64,000 nt of DNA from positions 124,001 to 188,000 of the forward strand of contig NZ_WBVO01000002.1 in the NCBI RefSeq assembly GCF_008933115.1, given 5' to 3'. The notes below the pieces were generated by a model, which did not search any database, was not told the origin of the DNA, and saw nothing but the letters and a program-made list of their open reading frames with translations. This DNA comes from Phaeocystidibacter luteus (GTDB lineage: Bacteria > Bacteroidota > Bacteroidia > Flavobacteriales > Schleiferiaceae). Made by a program: the position numbers and the translations under genes. Shown in pieces: positions 3,262 to 63,193 of the stretch (position 1 is the first letter of the stretch; each line of letters opens with the position of its first letter).

Positions 3262-3610
3262 TTGGACTAATGTTCCGACCGAAGGGAGGAATCCCGAGAG
3301 GCGAAGCCGATTCGGGAGAGGGTCAGACTGTTAGAGGGTCAGAGGGTTGGAGGGTTGGAGGGTTGGACTGATGTTCCGACCGAAGGGAGGAATCCCGAGA
3401 GGCGCAGCCGATTCGGGAGAGGGTCAGACTGTTAGAGGGTCAGAGGGTTGGAGGGTTGGACTAATGTTCCGACCGAAGGGAGGAATCCCGGGAGGCGCAG
3501 CCGATTCGGGAGAGGGTCAGACTGTTAGAGGGTCAGAGGGTTGGAGGGTTGGACTGATGTTCCGACCGAAGGGAGGAATCCCGAGAGGCGCAGCCGATTC
3601 GGGAGATGGT
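3262..3610. repeat. Tandem array of family A repeats, four copies
   Basis: Four copies of a unit starting TGTTCCGACCGAAGGGAGG at 3271, 3372, 3465 and 3558 (spacings 101, 93, 93). Each core contains TCCCGA...TCGGGA with an inner GGC/GCC pairing, so it can fold as a hairpin. Cores are joined by 8-bp units such as GAGGGTCA, GACTGTTA and GAGGGTTG. The extra 8 bp in the first spacing equals one added GAGGGTTG unit. The array reads through as a 101-codon ORF but looks non-coding. Confidence 0.9.
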
Positions 3611-5157: not shown

Positions 5158-5400
5158 TGGAGGGTCAGACTGTTAGAGGGTCAGAGGGTTGGAGGGTTGG
5201 ACTGATGTTCCGACCGAAGGGAGGAATCCCGAGAGGCGCAGCCGATTCGGGAGAGGGTTAGAGGGTTGGATGGTCAGACTTATGGACTGATGTGCTGACT
5301 GAAAGGAAGTATCCCGAGAGGCGCAGCCGATTCGGGAGAGGGTTAGACTGTTAGAGGGTTAGAGGGTTGGAGGGTTAGACGGCAGCTCTAAAGTTGAACG
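5158..5400. repeat. Family A repeats (two copies) with octamer linkers
   Basis: Immediately after the stop codon the sequence runs in 8-bp units (GAGGGTCA, GACTGTTA, GAGGGTTG). A family A core follows at about 5203-5255 and a diverged one at about 5290-5340 (TGTGCTGACTGAAAGGAAG). Both keep the TCCCGA...TCGGGA hairpin. Confidence 0.85.
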
Positions 5401-5572
5401 TTCTCCAAAGCCTCGAAGGTGCATCCAAATAGCACGGGACTTTAGTCCGTGCGGGCTTACGGGACGATTAGGCTGTTAGAGGGTTAGAGGGTTGGACATC
5501 AGAGCCAAAGTTGTTCGCTCTCTACAGCCTCGAAAGCACATTCAAATAGCACCGGACTTTAGTCCGTGCGAC
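5401..5572. repeat. Family B repeats, two copies
   Basis: Two direct copies about 117 bp apart, each with CCTCGAA(G/A), a ..CA(T)TCAAATAGC-like stretch and a strong hairpin: GCACGGGACT-TTAGTCCGTGC at 5432-5452 and its relative at 5549-5569. The second hairpin ends just before the stop codon of the minus-strand gene at 5573. Three inverted copies lie at 13.7-14.06 kb. Confidence 0.8.
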
Positions 5573-13607: not shown

Positions 13608-14076
13608 AAGGATTCCCTTTTAACCGTCCGACCGAACGGAAAGGTATTTTTCGTCTGGAGCAGCTAAGCCGGCTGTCGAACTGAGGCGCCGCTGTTTATC
13701 CAGATCGCTCGGACTAAAGTTACGTGCTAGTTGAAGGCACTTTCGAGGCTGTAGAGAGCGTACAACTTTGGCTATGATGTCCAACCCTCTAACCCTCTAA
13801 CAGTCTAATCGTCCAGTAAGCCCGCACGGACTAAAGTCACGTGCTATTTGAATGTGCTTTCGAGGCAGTGGAGAGCGAACAACTTTGGCTATGATGTCCA
13901 ACCCTCTAACCCTCTAACCCTCTAACAGCCTAATCGTCCCGTAAGCCCGCACGGACTAAAGTCACGTGCTATTTGGATGTGCTTTCGAGGCAGTAGAGAG
14001 CGAACAACTTTGGCTATGATGTCCAACCCTCCAACCCTCCAACCCTCTAACAGTCTATTTCCCTATCTTCACCCTC
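13608..14076. repeat. Family B repeat array (three inverted copies) with octamer linkers
   Basis: Hairpin cores (GCACGGACTAAAGTCACGTGC type) start at 13707, 13824 and 13949 (spacings 117 and 125), inverted relative to 5.4-5.57 kb. Each is followed by ..TGCTTTCGAGGC(A/T)GT(A/G)GAGAGCG and ACAACTTTGGCTATGATG. Linkers are 8-bp units (TCCAACCC, TCTAACCC, TCTAACAG). The last octamers run to within about 20 bp of the ATG at 14077. Confidence 0.85.
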
Positions 14077-17358: not shown

Positions 17359-17407
17359 CTCCCGAATCGGCTGCGCCTCTCGGGATTCCTCCCTTCGGTC
17401 GGAACAT
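17359..17407 (-). repeat. Family A repeat core, inverted copy
   Basis: CCCGAATCGGCTGCGCCTCT-CGGGATTCCTCCC-TTCGGTCGGAACAT is the exact reverse complement of the family A core at 3372 and elsewhere. It lies inside the probable 3' UTR of infB. Confidence 0.9.
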
Positions 17408-44228: not shown

Positions 44229-44620
44229 AGGATTGAGGGACGAAGATATAAAATAGGGGCTTGCCGACCTATGGACTTTTAGACTGTTGGACCTATAGAC
44301 TGATGGACTTATAGACTGATGGACCTGTAGACTGATGGAACTTTTGGACAAATGTTCCGACCGAAGGGAGGAATCCCGAGAGGCGCAGCCGATTCGGGAG
44401 AGGGTTGGAGGGTTAGAGAGTTAGAGGGTTAGAGGGTTGGACTGGGTAGCTGAGATTGAGCCGAGCTGTTATGCAGTTATTTCAAACTTGGTTCTGCCCA
44501 CCGAGGAATGAGGCCGTGCTGTAGTAAAAAGCGAGGCCTTTCATTCGCCAGCAAGCGAATGACCCTTTTGCTCGACGTTAGGAGAGCAATCCTTTTCTGG
44601 CCAGCAACGCTGCCAGAACC
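44229..44620. repeat. Repeat-rich spacer: octamer array, family A core, family E hairpin
   Basis: 44275-44350 runs in strict 8-bp units on the plus strand (GGACTTTT, AGACTGTT, GGACCTAT, AGACTGAT, GGACTTAT, AGACTGAT, GGACCTGT, AGACTGAT, GGAACTTT). A perfect family A core follows at 44353-44402, more GGGTTAGA-type units, and a family E hairpin at 44541-44562 (TCATTCGCC-AGCAA-GCGAATGA). No gene visible. Confidence 0.85.
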
Positions 44621-50627: not shown

Positions 50628-50945
50628 AATTGGATTTTCCTTGATTTTACTCGTGCGGACGCAAATATAGCGAACAGGAGGGAGGAATGGGTGGTGGGAT
50701 GTTGCTAAATGGAGGGTTGGAGGGTTGGAGGGTTGGAGGGTTGGACTTTCGGACTTTCGGACTTATAGACTCATAGACTGATGTTCCGACTGGAAGTTCC
50801 GACTGGAAGTTCTGACTGGAAGTTCCGACTGGAAGTTCCGACTGGAAGGAGGAATCCCGAGAGGCGCAGCCGATTCGGGAGAGGGTTGGACTGATGTGCC
50901 GACTTAAAAGAGGCATCCGAGAGGCGCAGCCGATTCGGGAGAGGG
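50628..50945. repeat. Promoter region, octamer array, 13-bp tandem repeats and family A cores
   Basis: After the peptidase promoter the plus strand runs in 8-bp units (GAGGGTTG x4, GACTTTCG x2, GACTTATA, GACTCATA, GACTGATG; about 50712-50782). Five tandem copies of the 13-bp GTTCCGACTGGAA follow (50783-50847, one with C to T), then family A cores at about 50848-50883 and 50895-50942. Confidence 0.9.
50662..50669 (-). promoter_or_regulatory. Putative -7 box (TATATTTG) of the S46 peptidase gene
   Basis: Minus-strand TATATTTG, full TAnnTTTG match, 35 bp before the ATG at 50627. Confidence 0.5.
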
Positions 50946-51009
50946 ATGGACTGTTAGACTGAAAGGCAGATGAGCAGATGAACTGTTGGAGTGCCGGATG
51001 TAGGGCGAG

Positions 51010-51215
51010 TGTGAGGGGGCTTGGAGCCCCTCCCCAGTCTAAAGTTCTTGAATCGATTTGAGAAGATTGGAAGTCTCACGAGGACAATTCGTGGACATTA
51101 GGTGGACAATTAGTGGACAATCGTAGAAGTTGAGAACTAAGCGATTGTAAACGTTTAACGTCCGACTAGGAACCGAGGATTCTGTAGCTTGAGAACGGGG
51201 TGGGGCTGTAAGCCC
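51010..51215. repeat. Family C dispersed element, copy 2, with inverted ends
   Basis: The left end GGAGCCCCTCCCCAGTCTAA and right end TTGAGAACGGGGTGGGGCTG are roughly inverted repeats, with GATTGTAAACGTTTAACG in between (about 51142-51159). The inner part has direct repeats of GTGGACAATTAGTGGACA type (51090-51122). The left part matches 3672-3786. Confidence 0.7.
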
Positions 51216-51337
51216 CATGTGCCAAGTGCCAGCAAGTGCCAGCAAGGGCCAGACTCACTTGGTGTCAAAAAGGCAATTCTTTTTTACTTCAGGAGCGGGT
51301 GGGCTACCTAGATCAATGTTTTCCTCAATAAGTCAGG

Positions 51338-54770: not shown

Positions 54771-55790
54771 TTACATGAGGATTTGGTTCTCCGCTTCAGT
54801 AGGTGCAGGGATGTCGGATTCATCGAGCATTTCCCGAAGGTCGATTTCAATGGTCCGACTCAAATTGGTGATAGGAATATCGTTTGCCCCGCCTTGGAAG
54901 GGGTTCTCGCTAACCTCTCCAATTTTATCCATTGTGTAGAATACCCAAGATACGAGCATGCTGAATGGGATGTTCATCCAAATGAGGATGTTGCCTAGTT
55001 TCTCGAATTCTGCAATCATTCCTAAAGGGAGTAGTAAGAGGAAGAGCCAGACGAAGTAACGATTGAGTGTGGCAAATTGACGAGGATACGGGAAGTTTTT
55101 AATTCGTTCACATTTGCCTTGCTCGGTATAGAACTCCTCAATCATGCCTTGCAGCTTTACGTGTCGGAAATCATCAATTAGGTCTTTCGATCTCAGATGC
55201 TTAAGGTCTGCCGATTGGAGACTTAGGATATGTGTTGCCCTGTTCTTTTTTGCGAGTACATATTTGAGGTCTGAATCGCTCAGAAGGTCTATCATTTCCG
55301 ATTCGAGGGAGACGTCATGCTCGCGGACCGAGAATCTTCTGCGGTACTCTTCATTTCGCCTTTGATTCATGTTTTCCCATGGTTTCGTTTGGCGCAATTG
55401 ATGTCGCAATGCGGCTAGCCAGGCTATATGGCGGTAAATGAGTCGCTTGTGAATAGAGTGGATTTCTTCCTTTGTGAGATCGCTATTGCCAAAATCATTC
55501 GTGACGAAATCTCTTGCTGTCACGCCCCAGGTTCGACTTGCGTTTACGATTGCACCCCAGATTTTTCGTGCCTCCCAAAGTCGGTCGTAGGTCGCGTTGT
55601 TCTTAAAGCCTATCAGAAAAGCGACCGCAGTGCCAATGAGAGTCACAGGAATCCAAGGAATTGAAATCCATTTGAAATCAAGCACTTCATAGGCGACGGT
55701 TGCGATGGACGCTATGAGGGCAAATTTGTAGAGGTCTCGACGCGTCCAAATTAGGGCTTCGAGCAGTTTGAAATGACTTCCTGCGTGCAT
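54771..55790 (-). CDS. Bestrophin-family anion channel
   Basis: 339 aa membrane protein. The family N-terminus (LLEALIWTRRDLYKFALIAS), helix 1-2 motif TLIGTAVAFLIGFKNNATYD-RLWEARKIWGAIVNASR and later IPFSMLVSWVFYTMDKIGEV-SENPFQGGANDIPI are diagnostic of bacterial bestrophins (RFP-TM, Pfam Bestrophin). These form pentameric anion channels. Lies between the two SUF blocks on the minus strand, apparently monocistronic. Confidence 0.94.
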   Translation of the reverse strand: MHAGSHFKLLEALIWTRRDLYKFALIASIATVAYEVLDFKWISIPWIPVTLIGTAVAFLIGFKNNATYDRLWEARKIWGAIVNASRTWGVTARDFVTNDFGNSDLTKEEIHSIHKRLIYRHIAWLAALRHQLRQTKPWENMNQRRNEEYRRRFSVREHDVSLESEMIDLLSDSDLKYVLAKKNRATHILSLQSADLKHLRSKDLIDDFRHVKLQGMIEEFYTEQGKCERIKNFPYPRQFATLNRYFVWLFLLLLPLGMIAEFEKLGNILIWMNIPFSMLVSWVFYTMDKIGEVSENPFQGGANDIPITNLSRTIEIDLREMLDESDIPAPTEAENQILM

Positions 55791-56398
55791 GGTGTGGTCG
55801 GTTTGGAAAGGAAGTTAACACTTTGATGGGAATGGAGTTTTGTGAATGGGCTTGCGAAGCGGGGCATTTTGGGGTGCTATACAATGGGTTTGATGCCCCC
55901 ACCGCCCAACCATCAATTTCCGACTATTAGACCATACGAGTCGTATGATAAACGTTTACAATCGGCTAGTTTTTCACAGTTCGTTTTGTGTCTGAGAATC
56001 GTCGACTCCCCCTTTGGAATCGTAACTTGAGACCGGGGAGGGGATGCAAGCCCCAGCCCTAAACCAACGCCTATGCTTGAACCTGTTGTTCCGACTTGAG
56101 ACTGAGTTTTTGAAACGTATCTTGCGGTCCCGTGGTCTGCCGTCACGGCTCCAAATATCGGAATGCCTCCTATATGTCGACCTTATCTAGGAAGAAAAAT
56201 GAGATGTTAACTTTAACCAGTAATTAAGTCTAAAACCTGTCAACCAAAATCAGGAAGGGACATTACTTCGTCCATAAGTCCATAAGTCCATAAGTCCATA
56301 AGTCCATAAGTCCATAAGTCCATGCGTCTATAAGTCCGAAAGTCCAACCCTCCAACCCTCCAACCCTCCAACCCTCAAATCCTTTAACCCTCCACCCA
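55791..56398. repeat. Long spacer: family C element (inverted) and 16-unit octamer array
   Basis: 55791-55935 is unremarkable non-coding DNA with GGGCTTGCGAAGCGGGGC-like palindromic sequence. A family C copy in inverse orientation spans 55940-56063 (AAACGTTTACAATCGGCTAG ... CTTGAGACCGGGGAGGGG). From 56271 to 56398 there are exactly sixteen 8-bp units: TCCATAAG x6, TCCATGCG, TCTATAAG, TCCGAAAG, TCCAACCC x4, TCAAATCC, TTTAACCC, TCCACCCA. The next base is the A of the deaminase ATG at 56399. Confidence 0.9.
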
Positions 56399-56884
56399 AT
56401 GACCCACCACCTTCCACACATCAAAAAGTGCATTGAACTTTCGCAAAAGAGTCTAGATAATGGCGATGCGCCCTTCGGGTCTATCGTGGTGAAAGACGGT
56501 GAGGTGATAGCGGAATCGACAAACTTTGCGGCAAGAAGGGTGAGTGACCATGCCGAGATTGTTGCCTTGCATTTGGCACATGAGAAGCTTGGTACATCTA
56601 ATTTGGAAGGAGCTATTCTGTATTCCAACTGCGAACCGTGCCCAATGTGTTCCTTCATGGCTCGCGAATACAAAGTAGCCGAGGTGGTTTACGCGTTGCC
56701 TTCGCCATTTATGGGCGGACATTCAAAGTGGAATATAATGGAGGATGATGAGCTTGAGCGATTCCCTCCGTTCTTTGGTAAGCCGCCAAAAGTGACGGCC
56801 GGACTGATGGAAGCCGAAGCAAAGGCAGTATTCGATCAAACGCCGTTGTGGATGTTTGGGTCGGGGGCTAGAGAAAAAAAATAG
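56399..56884 (+). CDS. Nucleoside/nucleobase deaminase (cytidine-deaminase fold)
   Basis: 161 aa zinc deaminase resembling guanine deaminase (GuaD-like) and tRNA adenosine deaminases. Zinc motifs: SDHAEIVAL (H51, catalytic E53) and SNCEPCPMCSFMA (C81, C84). GDAPFGSIVVKDGEVIAEST is the family N-terminus and YALPSPFMGGHSKW follows. Expected to deaminate guanine or another purine. The coding region starts directly at the end of a 16-unit octamer array, and the terminal Lys codons (..REKK) form the A tract that is the T tract of the opposing terminator. Confidence 0.88.
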   Translation: MTHHLPHIKKCIELSQKSLDNGDAPFGSIVVKDGEVIAESTNFAARRVSDHAEIVALHLAHEKLGTSNLEGAILYSNCEPCPMCSFMAREYKVAEVVYALPSPFMGGHSKWNIMEDDELERFPPFFGKPPKVTAGLMEAEAKAVFDQTPLWMFGSGAREKK

Positions 56885-62877: not shown

Positions 62878-63193
62878 GGATCTTGGCGAAGCCAAGAAAG
62901 GATCGTCCGCCTATCGGCGAACGAAAGGATTTTCGTCGGCATTCGCCGCGAAAAAAGTTGGACGCCAAGAATTAGTGAAGGTATATTTAGATAGTAAAAG
63001 CCGTCAGTAAAGAGAGAAACAAGAGATTAATGCGTCAATTTGTAAAGCAGGCTAAGTTTCAACCTGGGTCTTTCATTGCCCGATAGGCGAATGACCCATT
63101 TTACCGCCTGAAGGATACAGGGTGAATCCATATATTCTAACTTTTCGCAAGTCCGAAAGTCTAATAGTCCAAAAGTCCATTAGTCTAAATAAA
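62878..63193. repeat. Spacer with two family E hairpins and an octamer array
   Basis: Family E palindromes at 62903-62923 (TCGTCCGCC-TAT-CGGCGAACGA) and 63073-63093 (TCATTGCCC-GAT-AGGCGAATGA), matching 2414-2435 and 44541-44562. From about 63149 the plus strand runs in 8-bp units (AGTCCGAA, AGTCTAAT, AGTCCAAA, AGTCCATT, AGTCTAAA) until a few bases before the ATG at 63194. The array also adds false codons to the front of the ORF. Confidence 0.85.

Follow-up and report, generated by a model that had tools for sequence, protein, structure and literature searches.

GGGNATC-type heptamer repeats of Xanthomonas and Nostoc are reported by Rehm et al. (2015, PMC4692102) as short-unit arrays spread through intergenic DNA, with units of GGGAATC or GGGGA(C/T)T, four units preferred, a unit number that varies and the 3′ end of the C-rich strand lying near the neighbouring gene, whichever direction that gene takes. 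TAACTGA heptamer repeats, reported from Beggiatoaceae, Cyanobacteria and five Bacteroidetes (MacGregor 2015, PMC4679880), are also intergenic and in one genome lie mostly just upstream of start codons; they are presented as one exact word, single-base variants of which are rarely repeated in the main genome studied, and their indels between two Cyanothece strains are given as mostly 7-nt steps, a behaviour to which we liken that of the repeats described here. BIMEs and REPs, according to PMC2817692 and PMC3733652, join a small imperfect palindrome to short linkers in many intergenic copies.

Here we analyse an array of octamers in Phaeocystidibacter luteus that lies in a 64,000-nucleotide stretch of contig NZ_WBVO01000002.1 (positions 124,001 to 188,000, forward strand), which we call the window. 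In its working this array appears to come closest to the short heptamers known from cyanobacteria, Xanthomonas and Beggiatoaceae. In contrast to the heptamers of Rehm et al., however, the octamers have period 8, are very degenerate, in many cases lack G-runs and often stand in hairpin-bearing mosaics; unlike the TAACTGA repeats, their words vary widely around a TC core, and stop codons are faced as well as starts. Among the papers listed in a literature search by title and abstract opening, with few subscription papers included, there was no account of this family, whose units follow TCYRWNNS, and those matching the words themselves had unrelated titles. We think it likely that the array belongs, as one copy among others, to a lineage-specific mosaic repeat of intergenic DNA whose octamers are turned over in whole units.

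The octamer array before the deaminase gene

The array occupies 128 bp (56271–56398, plus strand), its TC strand being the sense strand of the downstream cytidine/deoxycytidylate-deaminase-family gene (56399–56884, plus strand; PF00383, 6.7e-19), whose ATG is at 56399; a bestrophin-like gene (54771–55790, minus strand; PF25539) is the divergent neighbour. The first-pass annotation had read sixteen 8-bp units here in perfect register, ending at the ATG, and we read the same units in one register with zero slips: nine G-ending units at 56271–56342 (TCCATAAG six times, TCCATGCG, TCTATAAG and TCCGAAAG), four C-ending units at 56343–56374 (TCCAACCC four times) and three degenerate terminal units at 56375–56398 (TCAAATCC, TTTAACCC and TCCACCCA), all on the plus strand. 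The TC[C/T] front that it had ascribed to the units is present in 14 of the 16 but not in unit 14 (TCAAATCC) or unit 15 (TTTAACCC). The array has a period-8 score of 81; its 608-bp intergenic region, dinucleotide-shuffled 500 times, scores no higher than 11. Scored against a genome unit profile built from 561 units, 17 of which come from this array itself, every one of the sixteen units lies above the 99th percentile for background 8-mers (2.9 bits); units 14 and 16 score lowest (4.4 and 4.5 bits), so that the final 24 bp, though array-like, are assigned with less certainty than the 104 bp before them.

Folded as DNA, the TC strand of the array has no predicted structure. The array departs from the G-quadruplex heptamers of the Rehm type, defined by a G-run in every unit and by four or more units, because its nine G-ending units carry no CCC on the TC strand and hence no GGG opposite. 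We took an antisense frame that crosses the array as mechanical. A coding role of the arrays was rejected: among 92 TC-type arrays in the 811-kb sample described below, none overlaps a predicted gene over more than half its length.

Flavobacterial promoters are described as having a TAnnTTTG box at −7 (PMC9723704). In two congeners, G001 and G002, a box of this type stands just before the deaminase ATG (TACTTTTG in G002, TACCTTTG in G001), followed by a short leader; here array sequence is found in its place, with the terminal units at 56375–56398 occupying the site of box and leader. A search of the deaminase intergenic region for a promoter box gave only TAACTTTA at 56208, upstream of the array and without a visible −33 partner. 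The array may thus have displaced a promoter-proximal leader that is still present in the two congeners; from this displacement it would follow that the array probably lies in the 5′ untranslated region.

The same intergenic region contains an interspersed ‘family C’ element (core GAGACCGGGGAGGGG, 56029–56043, plus strand) and lacks the hairpin module described below, so that the array’s tie to the hairpin islands is one of shared words. The family C element carries AAACGTTTAC, with its palindromic AAACGTTT core, at 55950–55959 (strand unassigned), in a longer motif that is also found in both congeners, with one copy upstream of the G001 deaminase gene, and in three near copies at L175 8883–10000; this motif is perhaps an operator.

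An octamer family and its repeat islands

A genome-wide search for tandem TC octamers, of the kind that the first-pass annotation had proposed, bore fruit: TCYRWNNS over 3.6 units gave 214 overlapping matches in the 3.21-Mb genome, a draft of 27 contigs, and the reversed pattern gave 0. Our sample of 811 kb comprised the window and 40 stretches that were mostly picked for arrays and not random (20 stretches and 15 of 20 further ones were picked for arrays or hairpins); the five unselected stretches (79 kb, small contigs) held no TC octamer array. A motif-free scan of the sample found 93 period-8 segments, 92 of them in TC register and none of these 92 mostly inside a predicted gene, genes being called by a custom hexamer script with approximate start positions. 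Later counts omit a segment without the TC register (L131 16423) and a perfect run of TCTGTGTC (L183), which leaves 91 arrays with 124 distinct units: 74 arrays in 47 intergenic regions of one orientation, 10 in four regions of mixed orientation and the remaining 7 at the ends of stretches or unassigned. Statistics on these arrays count each intergenic region as an independent case, even where regions share duplicated islands. Over the first 441 kb, strong segments number 57 at period 8 and 9 at period 7, with at most 3 at each of the other periods from 4 to 13; among the multiples, period 14 gives 8 segments and period 16 gives 40.

Like other short tandem repeats, the octamers thus stand head to tail beyond chance. 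Chance or an artefact of assembly, for which the draft state of the genome in 27 contigs could be adduced, is scarcely credible as an explanation when the score of 81 is set against at most 11 in shuffles, when there are as many as 91 arrays and 124 distinct units, and when related arrays are present in a congener’s assembly.

In the window, the family is found on both strands. On the minus strand, TC octamer arrays at 3317–3367, 3418–3460 and 3511–3553, the latter two in a 93-bp tandem composite, are accompanied by hairpin anchor modules at 3291–3316 (CCCGAATCGGCTNCGCCTCTCGGGAT), 3392–3417, 3485–3510 and 3578–3603; arrays at 5164–5201, 6 bp from a stop codon, and 5337–5382 by hairpins at 5226–5251 and 5311–5336; an array of G-ending units at 44266–44324 and one of C-ending units at 44400–44441 by a hairpin at 44373–44398; and an array at 50710–50782, with G-ending then C-ending units, and a weak, degenerate one at 50949–50998 by a hairpin at 50854–50879, which is followed on its strand by a 13-bp GTCGGAACTTCCA tandem. 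The array at 50710–50782 is absent in the orthologous region of the two congeners. On the plus strand, three arrays belong to a 125-bp tandem composite (13780–13813, 13897–13933 with another unit number, and 14022–14057), a hairpin anchor module lies at 17361–17386, and an array at 63146–63185 stands 8 bp from a start codon. Longer tandem repeats also occur in the window at 2044–2349 (123 bp) and 5358–5570 (117 bp).

The islands hold a 45-bp hairpin-plus-GTCGGAAC module, with octamers as variable linkers and end-pieces: a GTCGGAAC-type motif lies 11 bp past the hairpin in 67 of 69 cases, and the stretch from this motif to the next hairpin is mostly octamers. In the 47 array-bearing regions all 73 hairpins lie on the array’s strand, and five other repeat families are found mostly on the array’s 5′ side (C elements in 16 of 20 cases, heptamers in 10 of 12, K in 22 of 24, J in 12 of 12 and P in 48 of 55). 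Sequence that is repeated elsewhere in the sample makes up 67% of these 47 regions, 44% of the four mixed regions and 17% of 108 array-free regions of at least 150 bp each. The small repeats on the 5′ side include heptamer arrays that are degenerate around an AGGC core and reach 271 bp (L174 9794–10064, L125 9633–9728 and L166 12377–12487; 10 of 12 cases) and small AAAGGAT-flanked palindromes at or soon after stop codons (window 62878–63060, L171 9770–10342 and L132 7855–8457), 48 of 55 matches to which are on that side of an octamer array.

The islands share their outline with BIMEs and REPs, but the palindromes of BIMEs alternate in orientation at regular spacing, whereas here all 73 hairpins are oriented the same way with respect to their arrays. 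The tags that mark known REP kinds are rare next to the hairpins: in the 8 bp to each side of 84 hairpins in the sample, CGTC is found at 2, CTAC, which is GTAG on the other strand, at 2, and GTAG and GACG at 0. The GTAG kind has a RAYT gene flanked by repeats, unlike CGTC repeats, as reported in PMC3733652. A Y1 transposase beside arrays was sought here at the three 3.3-kb Y1_Tnp loci and not found: these loci contain no array longer than 24 bases, a chance-like length, and no full hairpin, their sole partial hairpin match being 12 bases long and about 1 kb from one of the genes (L140). BIME and REP membership therefore fail on orientation, on tag and, for the GTAG kind, on transposase context.

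A looser REP-like account, in which a tyrosine (Y1) transposase would move the hairpins as single strands and leave octamer linkers as by-products of cutting and joining, would accommodate the 80 hairpin matches in the genome (up to 2 mismatches) and the distribution of Y1-transposase genes, with three here, one in G002, which has few arrays, and none in G001, which has none. We nevertheless consider it very improbable: besides what the three loci and the tags show, two of the six genomes searched have Y1 matches without arrays (G006, with two matches, one of them partial, and G004, with one that has internal stop codons), and none of the 36 relatives searched, not even G002, has the hairpin.

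Orientation toward gene edges

The first-pass annotation had proposed a special link to start codons. In 45 of the 47 intergenic regions, it is the 3′ end of the TC strand that lies closer to a gene (median 53 bp, against 323 bp for the 5′ end), and in the four regions of mixed orientation all 10 arrays point to the nearer gene, one by only 8 bp. The gene end that is faced, however, is a start in 30 of the 47 regions and a stop in the other 17, and the distances differ little (medians of 39 and 57 bp); an array that ends at a start codon is not special, but part of a wider gene-edge pattern. What stands of the proposal is a weaker start-specific effect: the unique sequence from island to start has a median of 19 bp where the TC strand runs toward it (n = 30) and 100 bp where it runs away (n = 19; p = 8e-5), while the values at stops are 23 and 26.5 bp, with no orientation difference. 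Where the flanking genes are co-directional, the TC strand shares their direction in 18 of 25 regions (p = 0.04).

We attribute the orientation rule largely to the arrays being the last module of oriented repeat islands, because the islands are laid out in one orientation with the octamers toward their 3′ end. A general rule by which the pyrimidine-rich strand faces genes was rejected, being unclear at array-free stop edges and weak at start edges. Other repeats oriented by pyrimidine content show weaker polarity toward genes (9 of 15 for this genome’s own heptamers, 15 of 19 for the arrays of G002 and 5 of 11 for those of G001), so that the rule is strong only for TC octamers. It is common to these octamers and the unrelated heptamers of Xanthomonas and Nostoc, and is without an agreed explanation.

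At 19 of 28 start edges, from which two with an array over 170 bp away were left out, a loosely defined TAnnTTTG-type box separates the array from the ATG, though at one of the 19 it falls within the array itself; the 9 edges without such a box include that of the deaminase gene. At 6 of 13 stop edges, four with an array over 170 bp away being left out, the array runs into the A-run of a terminator-like hairpin, as judged by eye. We read the array as not placed at the start codon by a start-recognising process: islands would fill intergenic space as far as whatever must stay at the edge of a gene, and near starts the TC strand, being G-poor and unstructured, would be tolerated closer than the opposite strand. 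The stop of the deaminase array at the ATG would then mark where tolerable change ends.

Unit turnover and the TC core

The linkers from the GTCGGAAC-type motif to the next hairpin have lengths that are multiples of 8 in 32 of 43 cases; with identical sequences counted once the figure is 26 of 37, and the chance expectation is one in eight. Unit number also differs among the copies of a composite within the genome. Since linkers are mostly multiples of 8, most length changes come as whole units, and because array length changes by whole units the register is held. This agrees with the first-pass annotation in that something preserves the 8-bp periodicity, for which slippage is a fitting cause; its argument that drift would break the register is sound only in part, as non-unit indels do occur elsewhere in the family: 11 of the 43 linkers are not multiples of 8, and one, of 55 bp, holds a unit shortened to TCAAAGG. 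Under whole-unit turnover, units would be gained and lost by replication slippage or unequal recombination, which would keep the register while point changes accumulate inside units. Growth of arrays at one end was rejected, as the gradient of unit similarity that it would produce is missing (42 arrays, p = 0.77), and in mixed arrays G-ending units precede C-ending ones in 38 of 56, with 18 reversed, which is a tendency only. Arrays that are degenerate and yet hold their phase show how whole-unit steps can remodel bacterial intergenic DNA as far as promoters and possibly across them.

Changes within units are unevenly distributed. With the unit phase set by the TC motif, differences between adjacent units at positions 1 to 8 number 23, 14, 202, 117, 94, 137, 153 and 129 (470 pairs), so that 37 of 869 fall at TC; among substitutions between similar arrays, 4 of 168 fall at positions 1–2, in 54 array pairs that were chosen by similarity, where a shared vocabulary may pass for descent. 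Positions 1–2 change some 7 to 14 times less than positions 3–8, and TC is the least variable pair of neighbouring columns, alone or jointly, in 60 of the 67 arrays that have at least five units. The TC core is thus shown to be constrained, as the first-pass annotation had held for the front of the unit; uniform mutation with slippage does not predict a fixed TC beside variable positions 3–8. The constraint could reflect a binding site or the part of the unit that must pair for the next misalignment, and it offers a concrete handle on the question of neutral versus bound arrays. We considered a primase site as the source of the core and dropped the idea, since families within one genome have different cores.

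Constraint on the core, and a TC strand that as DNA has no predicted structure in the deaminase array, would suit arrays that serve as binding platforms, with a DNA- or RNA-binding protein reading TCY every eight bases and selection keeping both core and spacing. We regard this as unlikely overall, although it keeps some weight: arrays lie at stops too (17 of 47 regions), and both the six regions shared with congeners and the wider set of relatives speak against it. In the 59 relatives searched for TC octamers, G002 gave 15 matches and G001, of the same genus, gave 0; G030, G037 and G041 have exact simple repeats of one word each only, and varied TC words are seen in G002 alone, the reversed-pattern control not being empty in all relatives (1 match in G002, 5 in G053). 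At six regions shared with the two congeners (eight comparisons), TC octamer arrays are absent, in contrast to the 83% of repeats that Rehm et al. (PMC4692102) report at the same place in a relative; one orthologous region in G002 carries a period-8 run, 27 bp long, that is built on another word.

The lengths of these orthologous regions bear on how the mosaic repeat came to be there. Some are much longer here: region 50628–51337 has 710 bp against 215 in G002 and 101 in G001, with a promoter-proximal stretch that is alike in all three; the L175 region has 1118 bp against 54 in G001; and region 62878–63193 has 316 bp against 0 in G001. In others the content is unrelated at similar or greater length: region 44229–44620 has 392 bp against 659 and 351 in the congeners, the L125 region 358 against 350 bp, and the L171 region 573 against 516 bp. 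Because orthologous regions of similar or larger length exist, simple insertion is shown, by this comparison, not to be the sole history of the array regions.

The congeners carry degenerate in-register arrays of their own, with periods of 7, 8 and 9 and in many cases other cores. A dedicated copying process would put these together with the fixed TC: eight-base units would be added by a process that recognises the core or primes on it, keeping the core fixed and copying the remainder loosely, and the congeners would run sister processes with other cores and periods 7 and 9. We consider this decidedly unlikely; if true, arrays that are degenerate yet phase-locked would form a separate class. 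The near-equal orthologous regions L125 9503–9860 and G001 L160 18520–18869 hold unrelated degenerate repeats, and G001, which has no octamer matches, has degenerate 9-bp arrays (GTTTGAGGG-like) at L161 8465–8748 and L187 11816–11863.
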